From a virus, in IMG/VR virus record IMGVR_UViG_3300021090_000033, positions 1 to 48,488 of that record: a stretch of 48,488 nt of DNA; one strand, given 5' to 3'. The notes under the pieces were generated by a model that saw only the letters and a program-made list of their open reading frames with translations, was not told the origin of the DNA and ran no database searches. Shown here in pieces: positions 5,637-43,332 of this stretch (position 1 is the stretch's first letter; each line of letters opens with the position of its first letter). The position numbers and the translations under genes are program-made.

Positions 5637-7379
5637 CTACTTGCGGCCCTTCGCCGCGATCTTTGAACCCTTCTCGCTCAAGCCCAGGTCTGCGAATGAC
5701 TCGGTCAAGGACTCTTCCGCCTTCTTACCGGCTTCATCTTCCTCATCATCATTCTCGCTTTCACCCAGGTCATGAACCCGACCCTTGCCAAGCACCGTCT
5801 CCAGATACTTGACCTCGATCTTGACCGCTTCCTGGATGACCTTTGCGAAGGCTTCCTTATCGAGCGCGCCTTCCTTCATCGGTGGGTTCTTCGCCAGGTC
5901 TTTGATCAGTCTGGCTTTGGTAACATCGGGCAGGGACGTGATCGCCTTGAGAGCTTCTTCGACCATATCCTTCGCGTCACGCAAAGCCATCGCTTCGATA
6001 AGCCTGGCATTGCTGGTCGCCAGCGTTTGATTATTGGTCTCCAACGTGGCAACCTTCTCGTTCAATTCTTTCAGATCCATATCTTCCTCCGTGATAGATT
6101 CGGAATTCGCCACGCTTGCACTGAGTTGTGCCGAAGTGTTGCTAGTGGCTTTCTTCGCAGGGACCGTCCCTGTCTTTGATTTATCAGTACGGACCGTCCG
6201 TACTGCTTCAAACAAGGAAATAACCTCCCCCCCCGCACCCGGCATCGTCACGTAATCCACGCGATTGAAAGGACTCTCCAGGATCTCCTGCACGATCACG
6301 CCCTGCTTTCCCTCCGCTTCGCCCTGCATGGCTCTGCCGCGCGCGTGGATGCTCACACCAATGTGCGGAGCCAGATCATTGACTGCTGATTGATAGGCCT
6401 CGAATACTTTTGTATCCGCATACAATCCTGCCCCCTTCGGACCGTTGTCCATCCAGCGTGCATCGGTCACCAGTTCAGAAGCCAGGTCATTCAGATCACC
6501 CTCAGGACGTTCCGCCTCTTCCATCGATGTGGGATGATTCCACATCATCTTCGTTCCTTTGGGGAAGGCTTTTGCTCCATCACGCTGAAGGACTTCTTTC
6601 GGGTAAAAACCGCTCGCACCCCAGCCAGGCTGGATAATCTTAAGTTTTGCCGTGCCATCATTTCGAATGGATTTCTCATCGAGTGCAATGGCTGCCTCGC
6701 TCAAATCAACAACTGCACTCTCATTGATCGAGCTTCCCGAACCAGGCTCCGGTGCATCCTCCCATGGGCGGCGTGTGAATAACTGCGGCGCATTATCCAC
6801 CATGAACTGATGGTAGCTGTCCAGGGCAACGCCAATGGCACCCGAAAGGATCTTGCGTTCGTCACGCGTCAACGTTCCACTGCCGAACATATCGTCTGCG
6901 ATCTGCGTCAATGACAAATGCAATCGGCTCTCCAGCCATTCTGCCAGGTTGGATTTCTCCTGCAGGCGCACAGCTTCGAGCAGCGCATCAGACTCGACTC
7001 TCTTCAGGTCATCCACATGCTTGATGTACTTCAATGCCTCGATGATCTCCGCCTCGCTCATCGCCTCACTTAACCCTGCATCCTTGCGGTGCAAACGCAA
7101 ATGTGCCTCGACGACGAGCTTGTCCTTCTGCGGGATCTCGGACTGATTCAAACGCGCCAATGCCCGGTTGACCGCCTCGATCATGGCAGGCGTATCCGTG
7201 CCAGGCGCATGGTGTGCGAACATATAGGATCGCCTGTTCGAAGGATCTTCGCTCTCGCTCACCCAGGCATGCATATATCGCAATATCTCTGCATCGTTCT
7301 TCGCTTCGAGTATTGCCTTCGAACCATCCCAACCGCCTGTCTTATTCACAGGCGTCCTATGTGGTTTGATTGCTCCCAT
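5637..7379 (-). CDS. Prohead protease fused to scaffold
   Basis: 580 aa. Residues 1 to about 225 are helical and of unknown role. About residues 240-390 resemble phage prohead proteases (MMWNHPTSMEEAERPEGDLN, then LAPHIGVSIHARGRAMQGEA and RVDYVTMPGAGGEVISL), with His and Ser as candidate catalytic residues. A low-complexity linker contains two near-perfect DNA palindromes, and the last ~150 residues form a coiled-coil scaffold (MDLKELNEKVATLETNNQTL) ending in a charged tail. Protease-scaffold fusions assemble the procapsid and are then cleaved. Position between minor head and decoration genes fits. Confidence 0.8.
   Translation of the reverse strand: MGAIKPHRTPVNKTGGWDGSKAILEAKNDAEILRYMHAWVSESEDPSNRRSYMFAHHAPGTDTPAMIEAVNRALARLNQSEIPQKDKLVVEAHLRLHRKDAGLSEAMSEAEIIEALKYIKHVDDLKRVESDALLEAVRLQEKSNLAEWLESRLHLSLTQIADDMFGSGTLTRDERKILSGAIGVALDSYHQFMVDNAPQLFTRRPWEDAPEPGSGSSINESAVVDLSEAAIALDEKSIRNDGTAKLKIIQPGWGASGFYPKEVLQRDGAKAFPKGTKMMWNHPTSMEEAERPEGDLNDLASELVTDARWMDNGPKGAGLYADTKVFEAYQSAVNDLAPHIGVSIHARGRAMQGEAEGKQGVIVQEILESPFNRVDYVTMPGAGGEVISLFEAVRTVRTDKSKTGTVPAKKATSNTSAQLSASVANSESITEEDMDLKELNEKVATLETNNQTLATSNARLIEAMALRDAKDMVEEALKAITSLPDVTKARLIKDLAKNPPMKEGALDKEAFAKVIQEAVKIEVKYLETVLGKGRVHDLGESENDDEEDEAGKKAEESLTESFADLGLSEKGSKIAAKGRK
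6158..6205. repeat. Paired GGACCGTCC palindromes inside coding sequence
   Basis: CAGGGAC-c-GTCCCTG (6158-6172) and CAGTACGGAC-c-GTCCGTACTG (6185-6205), two adjacent palindromes with a single-base centre, in the linker between protease and scaffold. They encode part of RTVRTDKSKTGTVPAKK. Confidence 0.85.
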
Positions 7380-10040: not shown

Positions 10041-11639
10041 TCACACGGGTGATATATTCACCCGCTCCTCGTAAACTTCCACATCGTCTGCGTCCGCCTT
10101 CATCTGCTCCACGATCTGACGTAAAAGATTGTAGGCACTGCTTCCGCCATCGACGCGATCTTTGAATCTGCCCTTCGGGAACGCTGCATATTCATCCAGG
10201 AACGGATCATTCCACGCTCCTCTCACGAGTCGCACACGCCCGCCTTTTGCTTTGGTGGCAAACATCCCTGCATAATATTCCTTGCTCCCCGTCACCTGGT
10301 CGAACGTTCCCATCAAACCCTGATCGGCAAGTAAATTATTGAAAGCCTGTGCGCTATCCAGTCCCGCGCTCCCCGGGTCCTGCGGATGCCAGATCAGGAA
10401 GGGACCATCATTACGATAGTCTTCCTTGCCCAGCTCGATCATCGTTTCATCGCGCTCTGCAGATGCAAGTTGGTCAGCCGTTGAATGCTCGACGTAAAGA
10501 TAATCATCCAATCCCCAGCTCATCTTGACACTTGCGGATCTCGCTCCGCCTCCAGCTGTTGCCGCTTTATCCCATGCGCGCACTCGTGCCCAAATTGCAT
10601 TACCCGGTCCCTTGTCCACGATCGTGAACCAGTCCCGTTGGAACATATTCCCCTGCATCAGGTAGGGTTGCTGTTGATACAGTGCCTCGAAATCATAGAG
10701 ACCTACGTCTGCCCTCGTCCCGAGCAGCCAATCCACCGGATACCATTCAGGGCATAATGCCTCGCCTGGCTGTCGTCCCAGCGGGTCAGCCAATGGCATG
10801 TAAATGCCATCCCGCATCTTCTTGCGTTGCTCCTCAACGCTCGCAGGATAACTATCCAGGGCCAGCCCGGGCAGGCATACGATTTCCCACTGGCTTGCCA
10901 GCGGGTCGCTCACCATCTTCTGCATCAAACGCCCGGCCAGGTCGTCAGGGTGCCAGCGTGTATGGAAGATCACCACTGCCGCATTCGGTCTCAAGCGTGT
11001 GCGGCTCGAGCTTTTGTACCAATCCTCCACCAGCTCGCGGCGTGAATCGCTTTCGGCCTCTTCCCGGTTCTTGAACGGATCATCCACGATGAACAAATGC
11101 GCAGGCAGGCCTGTAATACCGCCTCCCACGCCCGCAGCCTTGACTCCGCCTCGATAGGGTCTCGCCAGATCCCAATTCTCTGTCGAGCGGCTGTCACTGC
11201 TCAACTCGACAGGGATCATCTTGTTGCTTTTATCTCCGAAGATCGCCTGGTACTTCTCATCGATGATCTGGTCTCTGATGAAACGGCTGTGCCTCGTTGC
11301 CAGGCTCTCACCGTAGGAAGTCAAAATGATGTGGCTGTCCGGAATCAGTCCCAGCAACCATGCAGGAAAATTCCGGCTTGCGATCTGACTCTTGCCGTGT
11401 TGTGGTGGCATAAGGATCATCAACCGTCCGATCCCCTGCTTGCCTCCGCTCGCGATGTACAACGCCACCTGTTGCAGCTTCGAAGCCAGCAATCGGATGT
11501 GGCGCGGCGTCTCATAACGTTCATCCACATACTGGCAATACGAAAGGAAATTCCTGCGCGCACTTCCTCGCAGCTTCTTCTCGTCGTATGCCTCGTGCGG
11601 CGTCATGTTCAAGCTGGGGTCGGTGAAGCTTTGAAGCAT
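10041..11639 (-). CDS. terL: Terminase large subunit
   Basis: 532 aa. ATPase-nuclease motor that packages DNA. Walker A-like MPPQHGKS at about residues 77-84, coupling segment SHIILTSYGESLATRHSRFI, Walker B FIVDDPF with VDD at about 185-187. The C-terminal RNase H-like nuclease domain starts near RAWDKAAT, whose Asp is the expected first catalytic acid. Length is normal. Its ATG overlaps the stop of the small subunit (TAATG), indicating coupling. Confidence 0.93.
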   Translation of the reverse strand: MLQSFTDPSLNMTPHEAYDEKKLRGSARRNFLSYCQYVDERYETPRHIRLLASKLQQVALYIASGGKQGIGRLMILMPPQHGKSQIASRNFPAWLLGLIPDSHIILTSYGESLATRHSRFIRDQIIDEKYQAIFGDKSNKMIPVELSSDSRSTENWDLARPYRGGVKAAGVGGGITGLPAHLFIVDDPFKNREEAESDSRRELVEDWYKSSSRTRLRPNAAVVIFHTRWHPDDLAGRLMQKMVSDPLASQWEIVCLPGLALDSYPASVEEQRKKMRDGIYMPLADPLGRQPGEALCPEWYPVDWLLGTRADVGLYDFEALYQQQPYLMQGNMFQRDWFTIVDKGPGNAIWARVRAWDKAATAGGGARSASVKMSWGLDDYLYVEHSTADQLASAERDETMIELGKEDYRNDGPFLIWHPQDPGSAGLDSAQAFNNLLADQGLMGTFDQVTGSKEYYAGMFATKAKGGRVRLVRGAWNDPFLDEYAAFPKGRFKDRVDGGSSAYNLLRQIVEQMKADADDVEVYEERVNISPV

Positions 11640-12313
11640 TACTTTTCATCCTCCTCGCCCGGCGCTTCATTCCCCGCATCTTTCTGCAGTTCCTCCACGC
11701 CCTTGGCCAGCAGCTCCACAGTCTCCTCATCCACCTCATGCGCGCCGCCTCCAGCTTTCCTCTTCAGCACAGCCGCCAGTTGAGTGAGCGGAATATAATC
11801 GCCGCTCATCTCCATGAATAATTTCAGGTGGTTGAAAAATTTGTAATCCACCCCCGCCCTCTTCATGCCATCGATCAAGTTCTTGAAACTGTCTGCGCGG
11901 TAATCCCACAGCTCCGCCGATTGCAAAATGGTGATCATCGTTTCGATTGCCGGGTTCTTCTTGCGCCACGTGCTGATCGCACGGTCGCTGTTCAAATTGA
12001 GATGTTTCTTCGCCAGCTCCTCCTGAGTTTCAGGCTTGCGTCCGTCCTTCGGCATCGATGCCCATGCGATATAGCAGGCTTGCCGCCATGGCCACCCCCC
12101 TTCCATTATGGATTCGAATCGCTCGAACCATGTGGGTTGTTCTGTCTTGCCCTTTAAAAGGAATAAAGCCGAACGGCCCGCCTCCGACCGCACCTGGGCT
12201 TCCTCGGTCGAAACGCCTTCTGTCTCAACTTCAGGCAGGTCCAGACCCAGCACCAATTGTCGGTACTGATCGTTCGATAGATCCAGCGCAAAATTCGGCT
12301 TTTGAACAGGCAT
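11639..12313 (-). CDS. terS: Terminase small subunit (copy adjacent to terL)
   Basis: 224 aa. DNA-recognition partner of the large terminase, assigned by position and by the helix-turn-helix-like core EELAKKHLNLNSDRAISTWRKKN. The core (GGWPWRQACYIAWASMP onward) is a clear paralogue of the protein at 17162-17767: I count about 38 identities in 60 core residues. N- and C-termini diverge. Late-operon position immediately before terL. Confidence 0.8.
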   Translation of the reverse strand: MPVQKPNFALDLSNDQYRQLVLGLDLPEVETEGVSTEEAQVRSEAGRSALFLLKGKTEQPTWFERFESIMEGGWPWRQACYIAWASMPKDGRKPETQEELAKKHLNLNSDRAISTWRKKNPAIETMITILQSAELWDYRADSFKNLIDGMKRAGVDYKFFNHLKLFMEMSGDYIPLTQLAAVLKRKAGGGAHEVDEETVELLAKGVEELQKDAGNEAPGEEDEK

Positions 12314-14486: not shown

Positions 14487-15710
14487 TCAAGGAGTTACAT
14501 GAGGCAGCAGACCCGATAAAAGATGCCATCTTTCTATCGTCACTGCCGCGTATATTGGATCCAATTCAACCGCCCTGCACTTCCTCTGCAATTGCTCACA
14601 AACGATCAGCGTTGTTCCACTTCCCACAAACGGATCCAGCACTACATCTCCGGGCAGGGATGAATTCACCAGCGAGCGCTCGATCAATGGCAATGGCTTC
14701 ATCGTTGGATGATCCTCCGATCGTTTCGGACGATCAATGAACCACACATCCGATTGTTTGCGGTCCACAACTTCCCTGATCCTGGGCGCATCGCTTTTCC
14801 ATCCATACCAAAGCGGCTCGAATTGCGTGTGATAATCCTTGCGTGAAAGAACAAGCTGATCTTTCACCCACATGATCGTGCTCGACCAGTGGAATCCCTG
14901 ATCACGCAGAGCTGTATCGATCGTTGGCCACTCCTGCGCACCCATCACCCAGTACACCATTGCTCCTGCCTGGCAGGAATTCCATGCACTTTTCACAGCA
15001 GTTTTGAGAAACGCAGGGAACTTGTCGCCCAGGTTGTCGTTCGCCATGCTTCGCTTTTTCCATGATGGATGATTGCTCCCGCCGTAATCTACATTCCAGG
15101 GCGAATCAGTCCAGCAGATCTGCGCCAGCTCTCCCTGCATCAATGCGGACATGACCTTCGCATCGGTGCAATCACCAACGATCAATCGATGCTTTCCCAA
15201 CTCCCACACCTGCCCAACTTCCACCTTCCACTTTGCAACGAGTGATTCACCCTGATCGACAAGCTCACCCGGGTCTGTAGTTTCCTCCGGAGTGTTTTGA
15301 TTCACCTCGATCAGAAGCTTCTGCAATTCCTTGTCAAGAAAACCGAGCGCATCCAGATCCAATCCTGCCGCGGCATCTTGAGCCAATATATCTACATCCC
15401 ATTCCAGATCGATCTCAGCAACGCGATTATCCAGGTATGCCAGCCTGCGCGCCTCCCCATTTGAATCATCCAGATCAAGGTCTTCTCTTTGCACCACCAC
15501 AAGCTCGTCACGATTAGTTGACACAACACGTACCTTCATGCCCGCCTTCCTCGCCGCGGCAAGTGTTTTATTCCCCGCGATCACATTGCCATCTTTATCC
15601 ACAAGAATGGATCTCCCTGCACCCAGTTCTTTGATGGATTGCTCGAGCAGTTCCTTGCCGCGCTCGGTTCCTTTGTTTGCATTATGCTCATCGAATTTCA
15701 ATTCATCCAT
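14487..15710 (-). CDS. ParB-like/DNA methyltransferase fusion, copy 2
   Basis: 407 aa. Residues 1 to ~95 form a ParB-N-like domain (DEHNANKGTERGKELLEQSI, DKDGNVIAGNKTLAAARKAG). About 165-400 form a class I SAM-dependent DNA methyltransferase: catalytic motif region TDSPWNVDY near residue 202 and SAM-binding DPFVGSGTT near 362, beta-class order. The usual (D/N/S)PP(Y/W) is DSPW here, so the first Pro is Ser. That is unusual and may change specificity or activity. Start at ATG 15710 (GAGG upstream), overlapping the end of its paralogue. Confidence 0.85.
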   Translation of the reverse strand: MDELKFDEHNANKGTERGKELLEQSIKELGAGRSILVDKDGNVIAGNKTLAAARKAGMKVRVVSTNRDELVVVQREDLDLDDSNGEARRLAYLDNRVAEIDLEWDVDILAQDAAAGLDLDALGFLDKELQKLLIEVNQNTPEETTDPGELVDQGESLVAKWKVEVGQVWELGKHRLIVGDCTDAKVMSALMQGELAQICWTDSPWNVDYGGSNHPSWKKRSMANDNLGDKFPAFLKTAVKSAWNSCQAGAMVYWVMGAQEWPTIDTALRDQGFHWSSTIMWVKDQLVLSRKDYHTQFEPLWYGWKSDAPRIREVVDRKQSDVWFIDRPKRSEDHPTMKPLPLIERSLVNSSLPGDVVLDPFVGSGTTLIVCEQLQRKCRAVELDPIYAAVTIERWHLLSGLLPHVTP

Positions 15711-17172
15711 TCGCTTCCTCCTCTCCCCCCAAATTGTCCTGAGCAGAGCGTAGCGAAGTCGAAGGATCCATTTGGGGGGATGCCAAAGGCAGGGGGGTCT
15801 TTCCTGTAAGGATGTTCCACCTCTCCAACGTCGCCGCCACATAAGCAGGACTCAACTCCATGCCAAAACAGACCCTCCCCAATACTTCACACGCCATCAA
15901 CGTCGTCCCGCTCCCACAGAAAGGCTCGAAGACGATCTCCCCGCGCTTCGTGTAAAGCATCAAATGACGGATTGGCAATTCCAACGGGAACGCCGCTTCA
16001 TGCCCATTTGCTGATGCGGTCCCGCGAATATCATCCCAATAGGCACGTAAAGCCCAACCTGCACCGGTCCATTCCTGTCCGCGTTGCTTTCCCTGTCTGT
16101 GATAGAAAGTCAACAGGCTCTGCACATCATCTTCGCGCACAGCGTCTTCGAAGCGCATTGCCTGGCCTTCGGCGTGTTCAAACGTTCCCAAGTATTCACA
16201 ATGCTGGTCGATGATATCTGTCCGCGGTGACGTGCTCATCAATTGACCTTCCTTCAGCCAGTGCCGCACATGACGCAGATTCCACCCGCGATCTCGCAAT
16301 ATATTTGTCCACTGATCGATCAACAGTAACACGTGCCGCTTTGCTTTTTTATCGAATGCAGTTGTAAATCCAGTACCGGTGTTGATCACGATCCTGCTTT
16401 CATCCTTTCTCGTCACCGCATCCATCACGCCACATATCTTCTCTATAAACGCCGCGATCTCTTCCTCGCTGGTTTGCGTTTCATATGCCTTGCCAACCCA
16501 ATAAGGCGGACTGGTAAATGTGAGCACTGCTTTATCTTTTTCCATCAATTGATTGATCACCGTCAAATCGGATGAATCACCGCACATCAATCGATGACTT
16601 CCCAACTGCCATATCTGACCCTGCTCCACGCCCCATTTGCGGACCAACTCCTCACTTTTATCGCGCTGATCACCTGGATCCACATACGCATCGCGCGCAG
16701 CGTCAAGCCCAGCCTGTTCCAGCATCACGCGTAGTTCCCCCTCGAGAAACCCAATCCCATCGAAGTCCAGACCTGAAGCGGCATCCTGTGCGATCTGTTC
16801 TGCATCCCACGCCAGATCCAGTTCACTGACGCGATTATCCAGGTACGCCAATCGCCGCGCCTCCCCCGTCTGATCATTCAGATCCAGATCCGTGCGTTGT
16901 ACAGCGACCAGCTCATCTTTTCCGGCTTCAACGATCCTGACCTTGATCCCCGATTCCTGCGCGGCTTCGAAGGTCTTGTTTCCCGCGATGATGTTCCCCT
17001 CTTTATCAAGCAGAATGGATCTACCGCCTCCCAACTCTTTCAGCGATTGCTTCAGCAGTTCCTTGCCGCGCTTCGTGCCTTTATTGGCATTATGTTCATC
17101 AGGGTGTATTCTCCCCTCTCCATTTTCGTTCGTTGAAAATGGGGAGGGGTCGGGGGTGGGGCTATTCGTCAT
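15703..17172 (-). CDS. ParB-like/DNA methyltransferase fusion, copy 1
   Basis: 489 aa paralogue of the next gene in transcription order. The ParB-like domain runs from about residue 22 (PDEHNANKGTKRGKELLKQS) to 110. The methyltransferase has FTSPPYWVGK near residue 220 and EPFCGSGTT near 419. TSPPYW is the form usual in cytosine-N4 or some adenine-N6 enzymes. The first ~21 residues (MTNSPTPDPSPFSTNENGEG) and last ~30 are translated hairpin repeats, so both ends have been replaced or extended by repeat DNA. Start ATG overlaps the stop of the small-terminase paralogue. Confidence 0.87.
   Translation of the reverse strand: MTNSPTPDPSPFSTNENGEGRIHPDEHNANKGTKRGKELLKQSLKELGGGRSILLDKEGNIIAGNKTFEAAQESGIKVRIVEAGKDELVAVQRTDLDLNDQTGEARRLAYLDNRVSELDLAWDAEQIAQDAASGLDFDGIGFLEGELRVMLEQAGLDAARDAYVDPGDQRDKSEELVRKWGVEQGQIWQLGSHRLMCGDSSDLTVINQLMEKDKAVLTFTSPPYWVGKAYETQTSEEEIAAFIEKICGVMDAVTRKDESRIVINTGTGFTTAFDKKAKRHVLLLIDQWTNILRDRGWNLRHVRHWLKEGQLMSTSPRTDIIDQHCEYLGTFEHAEGQAMRFEDAVREDDVQSLLTFYHRQGKQRGQEWTGAGWALRAYWDDIRGTASANGHEAAFPLELPIRHLMLYTKRGEIVFEPFCGSGTTLMACEVLGRVCFGMELSPAYVAATLERWNILTGKTPLPLASPQMDPSTSLRSAQDNLGGEEEANG
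15725..15795. repeat. Composite hairpin element with TTCGACTTCGCT repeat in its loop
   Basis: Outer stem CCCCCCAAAT/ATTTGGGGGG (15725-15734 with 15770-15779). The loop holds a different repeat, TCCTGAGCAG...TCGAAGGA (15737-15766). Second stem GCC-aaa-GGC, then GGGGGG. All of it is translated as the C-terminus of methyltransferase copy 1. Confidence 0.85.
17111..17161. repeat. Hairpin element at 5' end of methyltransferase copy 1
   Basis: CCCCTCTCCATTTTC pairs with GAAAATGGGGAGGGG, followed by GGGGG runs. Translated as the N-terminus of the methyltransferase and abutting the stop of the preceding gene. Confidence 0.8.
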
Positions 17173-17767
17173 TCGTTACCTCGCTCTCCAGGGCTTTCAC
17201 CAGGTCATCAAGCTCTTGATCTGTTTTCAATCCACCCTGCCCTCTCGCTGTCAGAGCGGCAAGGATCTTATGTGCAGGCATATAATCCCCCATCAATTCG
17301 AGTGCCAGCTTGCGATCGTTGTGGCTTTTATATTCCGGCTTGATTGCAACTGCCACAAGAGCAGTGAAGATCTCGGCTCTGTGTTTGAATAACGGGCCCG
17401 CTTGCATCATCCGCACCATCTCGTCAACTGCGGGATTCTTCTTCCTCCACGTATTGATTGCCCGATCGCTTGTCAGTCCAAGATGATTTCTCGCCAGATC
17501 ATCTTGTGTTTTCGGTTCCCGGCTTCCTCGCGGTGTTGAAGCCCAGGCAATATAGGCAGCCACGCGCCACGGCCACCCGCCTTTGCACATCTCAAGATAA
17601 TCGTCCAGCCAGCGCGGAGCGCCACTCTTCCCGAACATCGCTTCTAATGCCTGGCGCGCTCGTTCACTGCGCATCTGCATTTCATCACGATTCAGCGCAG
17701 CATCCTCTTCAGCTTCAGGCAAATCCAAAGCCAGCGGTAATTGATAGGAAACTTTTGGGATCGGCAT
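17162..17767 (-). CDS. Terminase small subunit paralogue linked to methyltransferases
   Basis: 201 aa, paralogue of the terS gene at 11639-12313 over the core GGWPWRVAAYIAWASTP to WRKKNPAVDEMVRMMQ, including the predicted DNA-binding helices (DDLARNHLGLTSDRAINTW). It is not next to terL but heads the unit with two methyltransferases, and has its own promoter. It may be an alternative or modification-specific DNA-recognition subunit, or a regulator derived from a terminase. This is inference only. Confidence 0.75.
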   Translation of the reverse strand: MPIPKVSYQLPLALDLPEAEEDAALNRDEMQMRSERARQALEAMFGKSGAPRWLDDYLEMCKGGWPWRVAAYIAWASTPRGSREPKTQDDLARNHLGLTSDRAINTWRKKNPAVDEMVRMMQAGPLFKHRAEIFTALVAVAIKPEYKSHNDRKLALELMGDYMPAHKILAALTARGQGGLKTDQELDDLVKALESEVTNDE

Positions 17768-26075: not shown

Positions 26076-26193
26076 CTTTCACACCCTTCCAAATTCGCTT
26101 CACCTCCGGCCATGCCTTGATGAATAGGATGATTGACAAACCGGTGCCGGTGAACAGCACCATGAACAGGATCTCAATAGCGATTCGCAACAT
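26068..26193 (-). CDS. 41-aa single-helix membrane protein
   Basis: Begins MLRIAIEILFMVLFTGTGLS; one hydrophobic helix and a basic C-terminus (WPEVKRIWKGVKDE). The start is fixed by GGAGG seven bases upstream. Overlaps the next gene by eight bases. Confidence 0.65.
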   Translation of the reverse strand: MLRIAIEILFMVLFTGTGLSIILFIKAWPEVKRIWKGVKDE

Positions 26194-26194
26194 A

Positions 26195-26356
26195 TCAACC
26201 TCCAAAAACTTTCGCACCAATATACAGACCTGCCCAAAGGCAAAGCCCGCCAAATACGATGCCAATGAACAACCAGGCGATCACCCTCATCTGCCTGATA
26301 GCTGCCTCGTTCTCATCCAACTCAGCCCCTTTCGGTTTTGACCAATTCTCGTTCAT
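26195..26356 (-). CDS. 53-aa single-helix membrane protein
   Basis: MNENWSKPKGAELDENEAAI, then a membrane helix (VIAWLFIGIVFGGLCLWAGL). Its ATG overlaps the previous TGA (ATGA), and its 3' end carries the GGAGG ribosome site of the next small gene. It opens the membrane cluster. Confidence 0.65.
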   Translation of the reverse strand: MNENWSKPKGAELDENEAAIRQMRVIAWLFIGIVFGGLCLWAGLYIGAKVFGG

Positions 26357-26724
26357 GCCAAACCTCCATTTCTTGCTACCAAAACATGAGGATGACCCTC
26401 ATGCTGCCTCATGTTTGCCTCATATTTTTGGGGCGGTCGCACCCCCATTCCTATACAAGGCAAATAAAATCCGTTAAATAACCGTCCCTCATGTACCCTC
26501 ATAATCCTCATATTTTTGCATTTACTTGTCAGACAGCTTGCCAATTCATGAGGGTTATGAGGCAAAATGAGGCAGTTTTGCCGAAAAGCACCAGCTGCAA
26601 TTTGTTTTGTAAGCCGCGATCCACCACAAAACAAATTTTTTCCGTAGAGCGCCCAGGGTGCCTCATGACCCTCATGCTGCCTCATGTTTTCCATAAGGCA
26701 TTTCGTCGTGGGTCGAAGCGTCAT
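26353..26724 (-). CDS. 123-aa ORF overlapping CCTCAT iterons
   Basis: Coding status is uncertain. ATGA overlaps at both ends (with the primase stop and the next gene's start) argue that it is translated. The protein has no recognised family, is Cys/His-rich and contains recurring N-MR-x-HEG motifs (NMRQHEGHEA, MRIMRVHEGR, NMRQHEGHPH). These motifs come from thirteen CCTCAT/ATGAGG DNA motifs in phased clusters, and the middle of the ORF carries a 12-bp inverted repeat. The stretch may be a replication origin that is also read as protein. Confidence 0.5.
   Translation of the reverse strand: MTLRPTTKCLMENMRQHEGHEAPWALYGKNLFCGGSRLTKQIAAGAFRQNCLILPHNPHELASCLTSKCKNMRIMRVHEGRLFNGFYLPCIGMGVRPPQKYEANMRQHEGHPHVLVARNGGLA
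26386..26685. repeat. Iteron-like CCTCAT array, candidate origin
   Basis: Thirteen CCTCAT/ATGAGG copies in four clusters (26386-26423, 26487-26511, 26548-26572, 26661-26685). Spacing within clusters is 9-11 bases, about one helical turn. The third cluster is inverted and the first has one inverted copy. An inverted repeat AATTTGTTTTGT/ACAAAACAAATT (26599-26637) lies between clusters three and four. Directly downstream of the primase gene. Confidence 0.65.
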
Positions 26725-29723
26725 AACTTCATCTCCTCTTGCTTCACCACTGGCTCTTCAGCCAGATCCATCTTTTCCTGAACCATATTGAATCGGAACT
26801 TGCCCGCATCGATCTTCACCGGGTCCAGCACCACCGCATTTCCGCCGCCCTTCGAGCCTGCCCGCTCCACTGGGAATCGGAAGGCATTCCGGCAAATATC
26901 ACTTACCGTCTTCGCCGTTACACCCTCCCCTTCCTTCCTTTTCGCTGTGCTGTCAATCGAAAAATTCTCCGCATCCATCATCGTATTTGCGATCAATGCC
27001 AGGTCCTTTGCCAGCACATAACGCACGATTCCCATCTTCTTCAGCTTCCCTTGTTGAACATACTTCGCGAATTCCTGATCTCCATCCACTGCCACGATCG
27101 CACGGAAGATCAGCGCCTCGAACGAAGCGCTCTCCCGGTTCTGTTCCTCTTCGAAGTTGATCTCAGCCACCATATTGAGATCGTCCATCAAATCCTTGTC
27201 GCCCTGCAAATAAGCCAGCACCTTCAACGGTCGCATCACCTGGTTCATGCGTGCGCTCACACGCACGTCGGTCAACTTCACCGAAGCGTCCACTTCGATG
27301 CGTGGCATCCACGTGTTCAATCGGAAATAAAGCAGGTCGTTCGTTATCTCCAGCGCCTCAATATCCTGCTCGGGCGGGATCACTCCCGGCTCGATCGGTG
27401 GCTGATGATTCAACAGATCCCGCACATCCCGCTTGTATAGGTCGAACGATAAACACCGGCTCTCCGTCGCTGGGTCCTTGAACGCGCCGTACATCGTCAA
27501 CAACGTCGGACCGAACACAAACGTCGTGGTTGGTCTGAACGTATGAGTCCCATCTGGCTTCAACACATCCATCATCGTCACAATGCGCGCCTGTTTCTTC
27601 ATTGCTCTCACATTCAACAACGCTCGCAACTCGCCGCGGTCTTCCTTGCTGTTCGTTCCCAGCGAATCAACCTCGTCGATCATCAGCGTCCCTTTATAAA
27701 TGTGCGCCATCCCCTTGAAGCCTGCGATGCTCGTCAGGCCCGCGGTCGTCATCATGCGGTAACAGACCTTTCCAATCAACAGCATCAACTCGCTCTTGCC
27801 AGCGCCTGGTGCGCCGCGTGCCCGTAAATAAGGCAGGTACGGGAAACAGTCATAGACCCATGTGAACAACCCATACAACGAGCTTTGAATGATGTGGATC
27901 TCCGAATCCAGCAAAAAATATCTTGTAATAAATAGTCTGATCGTGGCCAGCAGCTCGCGGATTGTTCTCTTCTTGCCAAGCTCGCTCGGTAAATTCACCG
28001 TACCAAACCGGATGTTGTCATCGATCATCGGCACCAGTCGTTTCCCGTTGATGTCCATAAAATTCGCCATGCCGATCTCTCGGGTCGATGTCAAAGTCAC
28101 AGAAGTTCCATTAGGTTTCAACCAGATATGAGCATAAGCAAACTTTGACTTCCCGTTCCGCTTGTCATACAGCATCTCCAGCAAATACCCTTCTGTCCCT
28201 TCTTCATTCACCGGATACCAGCCACCGATCGTCTCTTCACGCTCCAGTGGTTCATCATCCTTCTCGGCATTCTTCAACTCATCCCCCACCAGCTTCTGAA
28301 AAGCCCGCAGGGGTGAGCCGTTGTATTCGGTGAACAGATCGTCTGGGAACAACACCTTCGCCAGCCTCAACCGCATATCATTCCGTGCATTGTTCGGCAT
28401 CCTGGCGATCAATGGCAGGACGATCTCCAATGCTTTCTGGCGGTCCGCCCCCATTTGCCTTCCTGCATACCTCGCCGTGAGCAAAACGATGGGCTCTGCC
28501 TTGTCGAAAACGTTCTTCACATTATCGGTTTGCATCTTCGGCTCGATCTTCTCATCCATGTGATACTGAGCCAGATCAGCGGCATCCTTGCAGGTCTTCT
28601 CTTGCCCATCGTGCACCCACTTGAACTTCGGCCACCGTGCAACCCATAGCATGGGTCCAAAAGCAGTAGTCAGCGGGAAATCATTTTTATTACCGGTGAT
28701 GATCATCTCGCCTGGTGTGTCCGCATCCGTCGCGAAGAAGATCGTTTCATACTTATCCTTCAACATCTTGATCGTCTCTTCGAGATTCTTCCATGCTGAA
28801 CCGCACAATGCCATCGCCGGGATCCCCCACTGCCCCAGCGTGATTGCATCCGCCTGCCCCTCCACGATCACAATGCGGCCGCGATCCCGCAAATGCATAT
28901 GGTTGAAGAACGGGACCTTCTCGCCAGCCAGCGCCGTGTATGGATTGAATGACTTCCACTCCCGATCCTCTCCCCCATCCTTTTCACGGATCACATCATG
29001 ACCCGGCAGCTGCCTCCGCGATATATAAGCGATCCTCCCGTTGATCTTGTGCGCATACACCAGCCCAGGCTTGTCCATCAAGCCGTGCACAGCCTTCTCT
29101 TTGAAGCCAGCAGGGTCAAGACCGTGTTTTTGTGCCCATGCTGCCACATCACCCCTGAACCCCAATATCATCACCGCATCTGGCGAGTCATGCTTGATGC
29201 CATGCAGGTCAAACTCGCCCTTCATCCCCTTTACTTGAGCAGCAGTAGCTCGCCCGCTGAACCCCAACCGTGAAGCCCCAATCGTTTCATCGTTCCATCC
29301 ACGCGAACGCGCGTATGCCAGTGCGTCCTGATCCTCTTGCAGCCACCTCACAAACAAACGCGCCGCGATCTGCAAGGCGTCTTCACGAGCTCGCACGGCC
29401 AGGCGTTGCTTCAACTCCGGTCCATCCATTTCACCCAATGGCAGATTCGCCCGGTTTGCCAGATCCTTGATCGCCTCCTTCACGTCATAACCTGGGTTCT
29501 TCTTCAGTACCCAGTCGATCACTGTCCCGCCCTCATTGCACGAACCGAAGCAATACCATGTTCCCGTATCAGGAAACACGATCAGCGCAGGCGTGTGCGA
29601 ATTCGCATGGAACGGGCAGAAGCCAGTCCAGTTCTTCCCGCTTCGACGCAGCTTCACTGCCACATCCTGTTGAATGAGATCCACTATATCTACTCGTGCT
29701 TTGATGTCATCAATGATCGTCAT
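26721..29723 (-). CDS. Primase-helicase
   Basis: 1000 aa. CHC2 zinc finger (Cys36, His39, Cys58, Cys62) opens a DnaG-type primase. TOPRIM core IVIVEGQAD near residue 286 and ATDADTPGE near 333. A long middle region leads to an AAA+/SF3-like helicase with Walker A GAPGAGKS near 638 and Walker B GTLMIDEVDS near 675. Combines primer synthesis and unwinding for phage replication, as in P4-alpha-like proteins, though with a bacterial-type primase. No DNA polymerase is seen in the window, so host polymerase is presumably recruited. Confidence 0.9.
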   Translation of the reverse strand: MTIIDDIKARVDIVDLIQQDVAVKLRRSGKNWTGFCPFHANSHTPALIVFPDTGTWYCFGSCNEGGTVIDWVLKKNPGYDVKEAIKDLANRANLPLGEMDGPELKQRLAVRAREDALQIAARLFVRWLQEDQDALAYARSRGWNDETIGASRLGFSGRATAAQVKGMKGEFDLHGIKHDSPDAVMILGFRGDVAAWAQKHGLDPAGFKEKAVHGLMDKPGLVYAHKINGRIAYISRRQLPGHDVIREKDGGEDREWKSFNPYTALAGEKVPFFNHMHLRDRGRIVIVEGQADAITLGQWGIPAMALCGSAWKNLEETIKMLKDKYETIFFATDADTPGEMIITGNKNDFPLTTAFGPMLWVARWPKFKWVHDGQEKTCKDAADLAQYHMDEKIEPKMQTDNVKNVFDKAEPIVLLTARYAGRQMGADRQKALEIVLPLIARMPNNARNDMRLRLAKVLFPDDLFTEYNGSPLRAFQKLVGDELKNAEKDDEPLEREETIGGWYPVNEEGTEGYLLEMLYDKRNGKSKFAYAHIWLKPNGTSVTLTSTREIGMANFMDINGKRLVPMIDDNIRFGTVNLPSELGKKRTIRELLATIRLFITRYFLLDSEIHIIQSSLYGLFTWVYDCFPYLPYLRARGAPGAGKSELMLLIGKVCYRMMTTAGLTSIAGFKGMAHIYKGTLMIDEVDSLGTNSKEDRGELRALLNVRAMKKQARIVTMMDVLKPDGTHTFRPTTTFVFGPTLLTMYGAFKDPATESRCLSFDLYKRDVRDLLNHQPPIEPGVIPPEQDIEALEITNDLLYFRLNTWMPRIEVDASVKLTDVRVSARMNQVMRPLKVLAYLQGDKDLMDDLNMVAEINFEEEQNRESASFEALIFRAIVAVDGDQEFAKYVQQGKLKKMGIVRYVLAKDLALIANTMMDAENFSIDSTAKRKEGEGVTAKTVSDICRNAFRFPVERAGSKGGGNAVVLDPVKIDAGKFRFNMVQEKMDLAEEPVVKQEEMKL

Positions 29724-35092: not shown

Positions 35093-35123
35093 TTGACCAA
35101 CACAAAAAGGTTACAGATATAAT
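35093..35123 (+). promoter_or_regulatory. Rightward repressor promoter
   Basis: TTGACC (35093-35098), 19-base spacer, TATAAT (35118-35123). The -10 ends inside the ATG at 35122, so transcription would begin near 35131, at an in-frame GTG. A leaderless mRNA is possible. Confidence 0.5.
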
Positions 35124-35130
35124 GCGCCTA

Positions 35131-35529
35131 GTGAATGATGATCCGGTTGTTTCATTGCTGGAAAATGCTCTTATTGCATGGCGCACCAGGCAGACAAAAG
35201 CAAGGGGCAATGTTTCCCTAAATGCTTTTGCTGAAGAGATCGGTGCAAGTCGTTCGCTTGTCAGCATGTGGATGTTGGGTGATAGACAAGTGACGCTCGC
35301 CTATCGAAAAAAAATTGCAAAACCAATTGCTGATCTGGTGGGTTCTGAAGCTTATAAGGTCTTGGACGTACCTCCGCCAAATCCCCATCTGCAAAGGATC
35401 ATCGAGCGTTTTCCAAATATTTCCACTGAACGACAACAGAAACTTGCCGAAGATTCAGAACGTTATGAAAATGAGAATGAACGATCTAAGAAAGCACCTG
35501 CAAAACGAAAGACTTCATCGAATAAGTAG
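35131..35529 (+). CDS. CI-like repressor (XRE-type HTH)
   Basis: 132 aa from GTG 35131 (135 from ATG 35122). HTH in VSLNAFAEEIGASRSLVSMW, then LAYRKKIAKPIADLVGSEA, as in XRE regulators; Lys-rich, disordered C-terminus, no peptidase domain. Lies opposite the Cro-like gene. With the integrase gene in the same direction, it is the probable lysogeny repressor. Start is uncertain because the predicted -10 overlaps the ATG. Confidence 0.75.
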   Translation: MNDDPVVSLLENALIAWRTRQTKARGNVSLNAFAEEIGASRSLVSMWMLGDRQVTLAYRKKIAKPIADLVGSEAYKVLDVPPPNPHLQRIIERFPNISTERQQKLAEDSERYENENERSKKAPAKRKTSSNK

Positions 35530-40057: not shown

Positions 40058-41503
40058 CTAAAACGGAACCTTGAATGGGATCCTGGCTGGCAGGATCCAG
40101 TAATTATCAAGTGACTCGACAGGTTCCAAATAAAATGTCGATCTCGTCACCAACCCTGCCATGTCCACCCACTGGTGTTCAAGATAATAAATACGATAAG
40201 TTCCGGTGATTCCCTTGCTTGTAATGGCTACATCCACCTGTTTCCCCAGGTCCATCGCAAATTGCTTGTCCGGGTTATCCACCAGTTGGAACGAAATGTA
40301 CTTCTTGGGGTAGGCCAGCGTGTTCTTCAGGTTTCGTGCGATCGCCCTCGCCGCATTCACGTTTTGGATCCACTCGTAATTAATATCGAGCGACCTTATC
40401 TGATACTTGCCCTGGCTCACGCTGTCGTTGAACTCGCTGGTCTGGCTGTTCGTCGTCAAGGCATCACCGCGTAACTTGTTGGTGATCAAATAACCGGCTG
40501 TGCTGCCGGTGTTCTCCGCGGTCAGTTTCGAAGCGGTCGAAAATGGAGTGGCTGTCACGCTGAAATCCGCCGTAATATCCACGCCGCTTCCATCCGATTC
40601 AGTGTTGGCAACATAATCCTCACCCGCCACCGGCTGGATGATGTTCGTGCCGAACACACTCTCCCCGTTATAGGTGTAACTGGCAAAAATATCGTCTCGC
40701 ACTTCCCCTGGTGTCAATCGCACAATATCGATGGATCTCCATAACTCAACTACTGGCTGGATCTCCTTTTCCCTCGCAGTCACGCGGATCGCATTACGCA
40801 CCACTTCCCATGGCTCGAGCACCTTCACCGATCCCAGGTACACATCGTTATCCGTGATTGTGAACAGGCTTGGTTGCACATGATGCCTGTTGCGGAAGGT
40901 GATCATCCCGTCCCCGGCGACCCACAACTTCCCCATCTCCGAAAACGCCAGGTCATACAGCGCGGTCGCCGCGCTTTTATCCACTGCATACCAATACTGG
41001 TGTAAGTCCACACCTCCGCTCAGGTCCCGTCCCCACAAGGTTGGCCATCCGATTGCATCCAACAACAAATCCATGGCATCGTCGCCATACAGGTCTTCCT
41101 GCAATTCGATGTTCACGCGGTTTGTCTGGTCTCGTAGCGTGCTCCATCCATCCTCGCCGTTCAATTGCATCCGCCTTGTTCCCCTCCCCTCCGTGATGAC
41201 TGGCTCGTTGATCTTTCCTGTGATCAGGTCGAATGTTGCTCCGCTCGGAGCATCCACCTGCAATCTGAAATATTTACCCGCTCCGATATCGGCGTTGATG
41301 TTGGTGTCATACCAGTCGTTCAAGTCCACTAGCGACGTGATCATTGTCCCGCTTTCATCTTCCTCGAACCCATCCCCGTTCGGCTTGATCACATATCGCT
41401 TCCCGCGTTTGATGCGCAGGCTCGTCATCATGGAACCGTTGTTTAAACTATCGTAGGCTCCATCCATGTTCCAATCGATATCCAGCTTGAAGAGCGATGC
41501 CAT
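40058..41503 (-). CDS. Tail hub/baseplate protein
   Basis: 481 aa. FKLDIDWNMDGAYDSLNNGS at the start and RYVIKPNGDG, then beta-rich hub domains (VDAPSGATFDLITGKI) and a C-terminal LVTRSTFYLEP strand. This pattern and the position after the tape measure suit the tail-tip hub of long-tailed phages. One-base overlap with the tape measure gene. Confidence 0.7.
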   Translation of the reverse strand: MASLFKLDIDWNMDGAYDSLNNGSMMTSLRIKRGKRYVIKPNGDGFEEDESGTMITSLVDLNDWYDTNINADIGAGKYFRLQVDAPSGATFDLITGKINEPVITEGRGTRRMQLNGEDGWSTLRDQTNRVNIELQEDLYGDDAMDLLLDAIGWPTLWGRDLSGGVDLHQYWYAVDKSAATALYDLAFSEMGKLWVAGDGMITFRNRHHVQPSLFTITDNDVYLGSVKVLEPWEVVRNAIRVTAREKEIQPVVELWRSIDIVRLTPGEVRDDIFASYTYNGESVFGTNIIQPVAGEDYVANTESDGSGVDITADFSVTATPFSTASKLTAENTGSTAGYLITNKLRGDALTTNSQTSEFNDSVSQGKYQIRSLDINYEWIQNVNAARAIARNLKNTLAYPKKYISFQLVDNPDKQFAMDLGKQVDVAITSKGITGTYRIYYLEHQWVDMAGLVTRSTFYLEPVESLDNYWILPARIPFKVPF

Positions 41504-43332
41504 TATCCCTGCTTTGCCCGCTTGCGGATCTCGTCCTGGATCATCGGAGCCAGCACAAAGCGCGCTTCATTCTCATCTGCAGTGCTGATCAGCGGATGAT
41601 AATCCAGCACCACTGTGACAGGTTGCCCCCCCCCGCCTCTCACGGACCCTAAACCTGATACAGCTCCAACAGGCTCCGGCACCAGTCCCGGCCCCATGCT
41701 CGGCAAGAGCATCTTGCGCACGCCCTCTTCCCAACCCGCCGCCGTGCCAGCTGCCATTTCCCAACCCACCTGATACTTCATCACCTTTGACTCGCTGTGG
41801 ATGCTGAAGAATCCCTTGATCGTATCCATGACGCCCTGCGAAACTTTACGGATCGCCGCATCGAGCTTCACCGCTGCCCAGAACAGACCATTGATGATCC
41901 CTTCGATGATATTTCTCCCTACTTGAGCCCAATCGATATTCTTGAACTTCTCGATGATCTTCTTGATTACATTATCGAAGACCAGCTTGATATTTTCCCA
42001 GGCGTTCTTCAGGAGCGTTTCCAACAATCTCATGGCGATGTCCCATATCTTTCTCATCTCCACCCCGAACATATACCAATTGCCGTTCTCGGCGTTTCGC
42101 CACGCCTGTTTGATGTGCCGCCAGATCGCCAGCGCACTTTCAATGATGGTTTGGATCGAATCCATGGCGTTTTGCCACATCTGCGAGAGCCATCCCAGTT
42201 TGCCTGAAGTCAGATCCTGGATGAATTGCATCCCACTCGCGATGATCCCCTTGATGAAGTCGATCACCACTTGCGTCTTGTCGCGGATGCCTCCCCAGTT
42301 GTTTGTCCACGCCAGGTACAACAGATACAATGCGCCTGCGATCAACGCGATCACAGCCACTACGATCAGCATCGGCGTGGTAATGGCTCCGATCACTCCA
42401 ATGATCGCGCCTATGCCTGTGATCAATCCGCCGATGATCATGATCAACGGACCCATCGCCGCAACGACTCCCAGGATGACTAAGATCCATTTCTGCTGTT
42501 CGGGTGTCAATGCCTGAAACCACGTAATAGCCTGGCTGATCCAGCCCAGCAACTGTATAGCATATGGCAATAGTTGTTGACCCAATGCCGCGGCTGCATC
42601 CTGGAACTGCGCTGTGACAATACGTTGTTGGTTTGCCGCTCCATCTGCAGTCCTGACAAAATCTCCCTGGGCTGCGGCGCTCTTTTCCACCATCAAAGCA
42701 TAGATCGCCTGGTATCGTGCCGCCTCAGAAAGTAAACCTCCCTCTTCCATCAAGCCCATTTGCATGGCTTTTTGTTCCAACGTGGCTTGATTGATCACAA
42801 TGCCCATGCGTCGCAGGGGCTCGTATTGTCCTGCCACCGCGCTCTGGATCGCTGCAAGTGCATCTGCTGGATTCAGGTTAAAAAAGCTTGCCCAATCCGA
42901 ACTCAACTGCACCAGCGACTTTGACCATCTCAGGTTTTCATCCTGGTTCAATCCTGCCGCCTGACCCATTGCCCCGAACATGCCGATCGCATCGAGTGCC
43001 TTCTGTTGTGACATGCCCAGCGACGTGGCTGAAGTTAGGCTCCACTCCATTACATCTTTTGCCATCGAGCCAAACACCACATTGACCTTGTTCTTCGTCT
43101 CCTCCAGATCGCTGGCAAACTTCACTGCCGCCACGCCTGCCCCAATGATTGGCAGCGTCACATACGTCGTCATTCCCTTTCCAAAGTCCGTGATCTTTCC
43201 ACCCACGTCCTTCAGATTCTTGGAGACGTTTTGAGACCAGGTCTGGGATTTCCTCTCAGCCTGATCCATCGTAGCCAAATATCCAGCCGCATCCGCGATC
43301 AATTTAACAGCCAGCGTCGCAATCGTTGTCAT
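41503..43332 (-). CDS. Tape measure protein
   Basis: 609 aa. N-terminal TMP-like region (AERKSQTWSQNVSKNLKDVG, KFASDLEETKNKVNVVFGSM), a hydrophobic stretch (residues ~275-345: WILVILGVVAAMGPLIMIIG on) and a helical C-terminal half. Sets tail length and is ejected with DNA. Relatively short, predicting a modest tail. Its ATG overlaps the stop of the chaperone frame. Confidence 0.9.
   Translation of the reverse strand: MTTIATLAVKLIADAAGYLATMDQAERKSQTWSQNVSKNLKDVGGKITDFGKGMTTYVTLPIIGAGVAAVKFASDLEETKNKVNVVFGSMAKDVMEWSLTSATSLGMSQQKALDAIGMFGAMGQAAGLNQDENLRWSKSLVQLSSDWASFFNLNPADALAAIQSAVAGQYEPLRRMGIVINQATLEQKAMQMGLMEEGGLLSEAARYQAIYALMVEKSAAAQGDFVRTADGAANQQRIVTAQFQDAAAALGQQLLPYAIQLLGWISQAITWFQALTPEQQKWILVILGVVAAMGPLIMIIGGLITGIGAIIGVIGAITTPMLIVVAVIALIAGALYLLYLAWTNNWGGIRDKTQVVIDFIKGIIASGMQFIQDLTSGKLGWLSQMWQNAMDSIQTIIESALAIWRHIKQAWRNAENGNWYMFGVEMRKIWDIAMRLLETLLKNAWENIKLVFDNVIKKIIEKFKNIDWAQVGRNIIEGIINGLFWAAVKLDAAIRKVSQGVMDTIKGFFSIHSESKVMKYQVGWEMAAGTAAGWEEGVRKMLLPSMGPGLVPEPVGAVSGLGSVRGGGGQPVTVVLDYHPLISTADENEARFVLAPMIQDEIRKRAKQG

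Follow-up and report, generated by a model that had tools for sequence, protein, structure and literature searches.

The Rep protein of SaPIs recognises, through its C-terminal domain, iterons located directly downstream of the rep gene (PMC7581432). PICI origins are likewise found 3' of rep, where two iteron sets flank AT-rich DNA (PMC6092414). In SCCmec, the MCM-like initiator helicase Cch2 uses its C-terminal domain to bind short direct repeats directly downstream of its own gene (PMC7581432), and the alpha protein of P4 binds repeats via a winged helix, unwinds the DNA and primes it (PMC4234260). The system described here is of this initiator-helicase and downstream-iteron kind, already known; what is new is to find it in full-size phages.

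The window, that is the whole 48,488-nucleotide stretch analysed, is the IMG/VR contig IMGVR_UViG_3300021090_000033, of which positions 1-48,488 are the record itself. Its source is most likely a temperate tailed phage. A large terminase, an integrase and a serine recombinase are encoded in it, as well as a long ORF (41503-43332) that is tape-measure-like, a judgement from its length and appearance alone. No DNA polymerase turned up in the window proteins that were scanned, and the host polymerase is therefore presumably used. Within this genome, the segment 26386-26685 is very probably the replication origin, where the adjacent primase-helicase would bind, open the DNA and prime for the host polymerase. 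This assignment of a putative origin is strongly supported by sequence comparison. The features of the locus are collected in Table 1.

Table 1. Iterons, AT-rich elements and open frames at the putative origin (window coordinates).
Feature	Coordinates	Strand	Remarks
Primase-helicase, 1000 aa	26721..29723	-	CHC2 zinc ribbon, Toprim, AAA+ helicase-like part, C-terminal winged-helix-like domain; proposed initiator
Iteron cluster 1	26661..26685	-	ATGAGG x3, minus-strand sense
AT-rich palindrome ATTTGTTTTGT-N-ACAAAACAAAT, between clusters 1 and 2	26599..26637	no strand	Proposed melting or assembly site
Iteron cluster 2, inverted, x3, facing cluster 1	26548..26572	+	
TTGTCTGACA-type element	26525..26536	no strand	Kept in 6/8 close relatives
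Iteron cluster 3	26487..26511	-	ATGAGG x3
ATTTGCCTTGTATA element, between clusters 3 and 4	26452..26465	-	Resembles palindrome arm (ATTTGNNTTGT)
Iteron cluster 4	26386..26423	-	ATGAGG x3 + one inverted copy
123-aa open frame	26353..26724	-	Judged not a conserved gene
Small predicted membrane protein, 53 aa, next gene downstream	26192..26356	-	GGAGG before ATG

The array begins directly after the primase stop on the minus strand, and all iterons of the window are 3' of this stop. A count over both strands confirms the description given in the first-pass annotation: 13 copies of CCTCAT/ATGAGG are packed in 300 bp as four clusters, one of them inverted, with start-to-start spacings of 9, 10 or 11 bp within clusters (CCTCAT starts at 26386(-), 26397, 26407 and 26418; 26487, 26497 and 26506; 26548(-), 26557(-) and 26567(-); 26661, 26670 and 26680). 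Over the whole window this hexamer is not enriched (31 seen versus 39.5 expected). In 60 simulated first-order Markov sequences of 48.5 kb each, no 6-mer occurred more than 6 times within 300 bp, as compared to 13 in the array. The 12-bp inverted repeat that had also been noted is present, with arms (26599-26610 and 26626-26637) that are 100% complementary and separated by 15 nt. The array includes a 100-bp stretch of low duplex stability (0.8% of windows are less stable), which is not the minimum of the window. GC skew displays no turn at the array, where it is uninformative because almost all genes lie on one strand.

Comparison with the pri-rep-ori arrangement of SaPIs and PICIs reveals common architectural traits. 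In both cases the putative origin lies immediately 3' of the initiator helicase gene, to which a primase is sometimes fused in SaPI/PICI, and two iteron sets surround an AT-rich region, formed here, as in most relatives, by clusters 1 and 2 and the palindrome. Both also associate an AAA+ helicase with a C-terminal domain, DNA-binding in SaPI/PICI and winged-helix-like by model here (PMC6092414, PMC7581432). In contrast to these satellites, the window belongs to a full tailed phage with its own large terminase and integrases, its primase is of the fused DnaG-type (CHC2/Toprim), its four clusters form two modules, and its palindrome is conserved in sequence. The very similar organisation in full-size tailed phages implies that it may not be a hallmark of satellites.

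A search of viral contigs with a primase alignment yielded 29 loci. Phased short iterons directly following the primase gene are observed in ~25 relatives, mostly in one layout, and the same array occupies the same place in 6 close relatives (primase 72-81% identical) and ~18 more distant ones. The usual layout consists of forward iterons, an AT-rich palindrome, reverse iterons, a spacer, forward iterons, an AT-rich element often resembling ATTTGYCTTGTA, and finally forward then reverse iterons. Among 166 gaps of ≤30 bp, 132 measure 8-11 bp and 20 more 17-23 bp, the latter as would result from the loss or decay of one copy. In 22 of the 26 informative loci, 6-mer density is highest in the 500 bp that follow the primase stop; in two of the four exceptions (L071 and L073), iterons are still present, their word being degenerate. 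When phased convergent 6-mer pairs were sought blindly across 599 kb of the relatives' contigs, post-primase sites alone came up, and the array is the only one detected in the window and in its relatives, no second distant iteron region having been found in either. No iterons follow the primase gene in L064, its near-copy L069, and L072, which may use an origin of a different type or at another position.

The AT-rich elements are conserved to different extents. The palindrome arms are near-invariant in 8 close relatives and vary in the most distant ones, while the ATTTGCCTTGTATA element is conserved in most close relatives and recognisable in several distant ones. Searching viral contigs with the palindrome as sole query identified 12 stretches, 11 of which are directly after a primase-helicase gene; the viral match L021 was discarded as unrelated. 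The 22 matches of the pattern in bacterial genomes were attributed to chance, none being near a related primase.

Some loci depart from the common scheme. In L055 (the same phage as L015) and L056, some iterons are well inside the primase gene; in L055, at ~6998-7042, the iterons GATGAACC belong to the primase 3' end and encode the protein tail DEPMNPDEPD. In G029 (L073), a primase part (373-aa frame) and a helicase part (594-aa frame) match separately on the contig, and the iterons follow the helicase part. In G019 (L058), the primase-helicase match continues across the two ends of the contig, which hints at a genome that is circular or circularly permuted.

The first-pass annotation had proposed that the stretch serves both as an origin and as a protein. 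The open frame with ATGA overlaps at the primase stop and at the next start is indeed there, as are the NMRxHEG peptide repeats (NMRQHEG), which are the translated iterons. With the iterons held in place, the chance of such an open frame in the window is ~0.0035; several relatives have shorter frames starting from the same ATGA, and the first iterons of L015 establish that iterons can be coding, though in another gene. Dual-use DNA, combining an origin with a functional repeat peptide of 123 residues or fewer made by ATGA-coupled translation, is nevertheless very unlikely. Across the region, the frame is open in 0 of the 10 relatives checked, including those whose primase is 76-81% identical, and the longest frames from the primase stop are 106, 94, 81, 70 ... 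42 codons. The spacers of close relatives differ by indels whose lengths are not divisible by 3 and which shift the frame. A scan of viral contigs returned no relative of the peptide, and it has no family match. Moreover, the ATGA at the primase stop is common, often because iteron 1 (ATGAGG or ATGAAG) supplies the stop TGA. A conserved 123-aa peptide is ruled out by the interrupted frames, the frame-shifting indels and the absent homologues; a private, non-conserved peptide in the window phage is still conceivable. Asked which of the two is kept, relatives give a clear answer, the DNA motif and not the peptide: the origin half of the proposal stands, with layout, position and spacing retained in ~25 relatives, and the protein half does not.

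The inverted cluster might also be viewed at the RNA level, as part of an element in the primase operon mRNA whose opposed clusters would form hairpins controlling expression. Clusters 2 and 3 can form a hairpin (z -3.25 by folding as single-strand DNA); however, its pairing is carried by the iterons only (98% of iteron columns paired versus 57% of spacer columns), three of the four clusters share one orientation, and the ~10-bp phasing is a double-helix signature. The weak spacer pairing and the lack of any Rfam match led us to reject the hairpin, making an RNA element an extremely improbable explanation.

Short phased repeats are typical of partition sites and repressor operators too. Candidate occupants of a centromere or an operator array, as partition protein or regulator, are an HTH protein (35122-35529) and two ParB-like/methyltransferase fusions of the phage. 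Still, such a site is unlikely: no ParA was detected among the scanned proteins, the HTH protein and the ParB-like fusions each have matches in 6/16 relatives as opposed to an array present in nearly all and following the primase, and the arrangement of convergent sets about an AT-rich palindrome agrees with that of PICI origins (PMC6092414). To note, the two fusions are neighbours (14487-17172), each joining a ParB-like N-terminal part to an N6/N4 DNA methyltransferase.

The protein encoded upstream of the array was analysed by profile and structure searches. Pfam identifies a Zn_ribbon_DnaG domain (4.5e-21) and a Toprim domain (1.8e-7). An AlphaFold model of residues 560-1000 (alignment of 24 sequences; pLDDT 82.6) resembles SF3/MCM/ORC, NrS-1 helicase region and PriRep1 structures, the SaPI PriRep1 fold (7PDS) matching the helicase part; the predicted AAA+ helicase in the same chain as the Toprim primase is thus an assignment by fold only. 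The C-terminal domain is predicted as helix, helix, two short strands (wing) and helix, with a mean pLDDT of 79; modelled in isolation, it returned no significant Foldseek match (best E 0.046). Among named phages and plasmids there is no close annotated relative, the best of the matches listed covering 33-44% of the primase at ~25-31% identity. In many relatives, the primase-helicase terminates with a Q-x-x-(L/M/I)-x-(F/L) tail (KQEEMKL at 26721-26745 of the window; KQEEIPF, KQDRIPF and VQKDIPF in relatives); such tails resemble the motif that binds the bacterial sliding clamp and might serve to bring in the host polymerase.

Several described initiators can be placed beside this protein. P4 alpha binds its origin repeats by a winged helix (PMC4234260), the window counterpart of which is winged-helix-like by model only. 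Both proteins unite a Toprim-type primase and a helicase in one chain, with no P4 alpha sequence similarity detectable for the helicase and C-terminal domain in family libraries. P4 possesses a second distant iteron region, crr, as opposed to the single array observed here; its iteron, GGTGAACAG, would resemble the GTGAAC word of L056/L057. The NrS-1 primase-polymerase-helicase (6K9C) aligns in fold along the helicase part and C-terminal region, but its primase is of another class (PrimPol). SCCmec Cch2 differs in that its polymerase-primase is separate and in that its putative origin has three 5-nt iterons only. In lambda O-type origins, the iterons are inside the initiator gene and the host helicase is loaded by a partner protein, whereas every iteron of the window comes after the primase stop and a helicase-like part is encoded by the phage itself.

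The iteron word varies between phages and is largely uniform inside one origin. Across loci, the words are ATGAGG, ATGAAG, ATGAAC, GTGAAC, AGTGTA, ATGTAG, ATGTAC, ACGAAC, GCGAAG and GCGAAA, for which our own alignment suggests a common core RYGWRN. Word distance follows primase distance once terminase distance is removed (partial r 0.57, p 1e-4), and does not follow terminase distance once primase distance is removed (r -0.10, p 0.81). Across the 16 relatives compared, just three proteins are universal, namely the primase-helicase, the large terminase and a terminase-linked protein that cross-matches a second window ORF. Based on position, universality and covariation, we infer that the primase-helicase is the binder; physical linkage of array and primase alone could produce the covariation. 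A packaging site (cos/pac) bound by the small terminase would agree with the universality of the terminase-linked protein, yet it deserves almost no credence, since the array lies beside the primase, 14 kb from the terminase genes (10041-12313), and its word does not track terminase divergence.

Returning to an origin read by the primase-helicase, a partial Mantel test does not separate the C-terminal domain from the helicase core as the source of specificity (p 0.14). Among the 6 close relatives, four use ATGAGG and two, L003 and L007, use ATGAAG. The latter two are on separate branches of the primase tree, with 2 changes in bootstraps, a single origin being formally possible. In both ATGAAG phages, positions I943 and A947 of the window protein are replaced by L and M (two versus six sequences). 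Both positions lie within the predicted recognition helix or at its end, and are candidates for specificity residues.

Ring assembly, melting and priming can be proposed for this origin on the model of SaPI Rep, Cch2 and P4 alpha (PMC7581432, PMC6092414, PMC4234260). The 6-bp iterons, which recur once per helical turn in clusters of three, would be bound by subunits of the primase-helicase, the contact being probably made by the C-terminal winged-helix-like domain. Two helicase rings would then assemble head to head across the palindrome, between the facing clusters 1 and 2, and melt its AT-rich DNA, after which the Toprim primase would lay primers on both strands for the host polymerase. The second AT-rich element, together with clusters 3 and 4 on its two sides, may constitute a second origin half or a control element.

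No description of such a two-module layout was found for SaPI or P4. The chances appear about even that these loci represent a family of phage origins not described before, with the C-terminal domain and almost all iteron copies changing specificity jointly, which would give rise to some ten initiator/iteron pairs (core RYGWRN) sharing a single conserved two-module scaffold. The ~ten words on a fixed scaffold make the joint change of an initiator specificity and a dozen sites testable, and the locus provides a concrete candidate origin for a phage group known only from metagenomes.

Two further observations concern other window genes. The product of 31350-32267 matches a PHROG DNA topoisomerase family (E 9e-103), with no Pfam match at E 0.01, and is found in 6/16 relatives. 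The terminase-linked protein (11639-12313) and the product of 17162-17767 both match something in 16/16 relatives and resemble related copies with a common motif, a small-terminase role being only putative.
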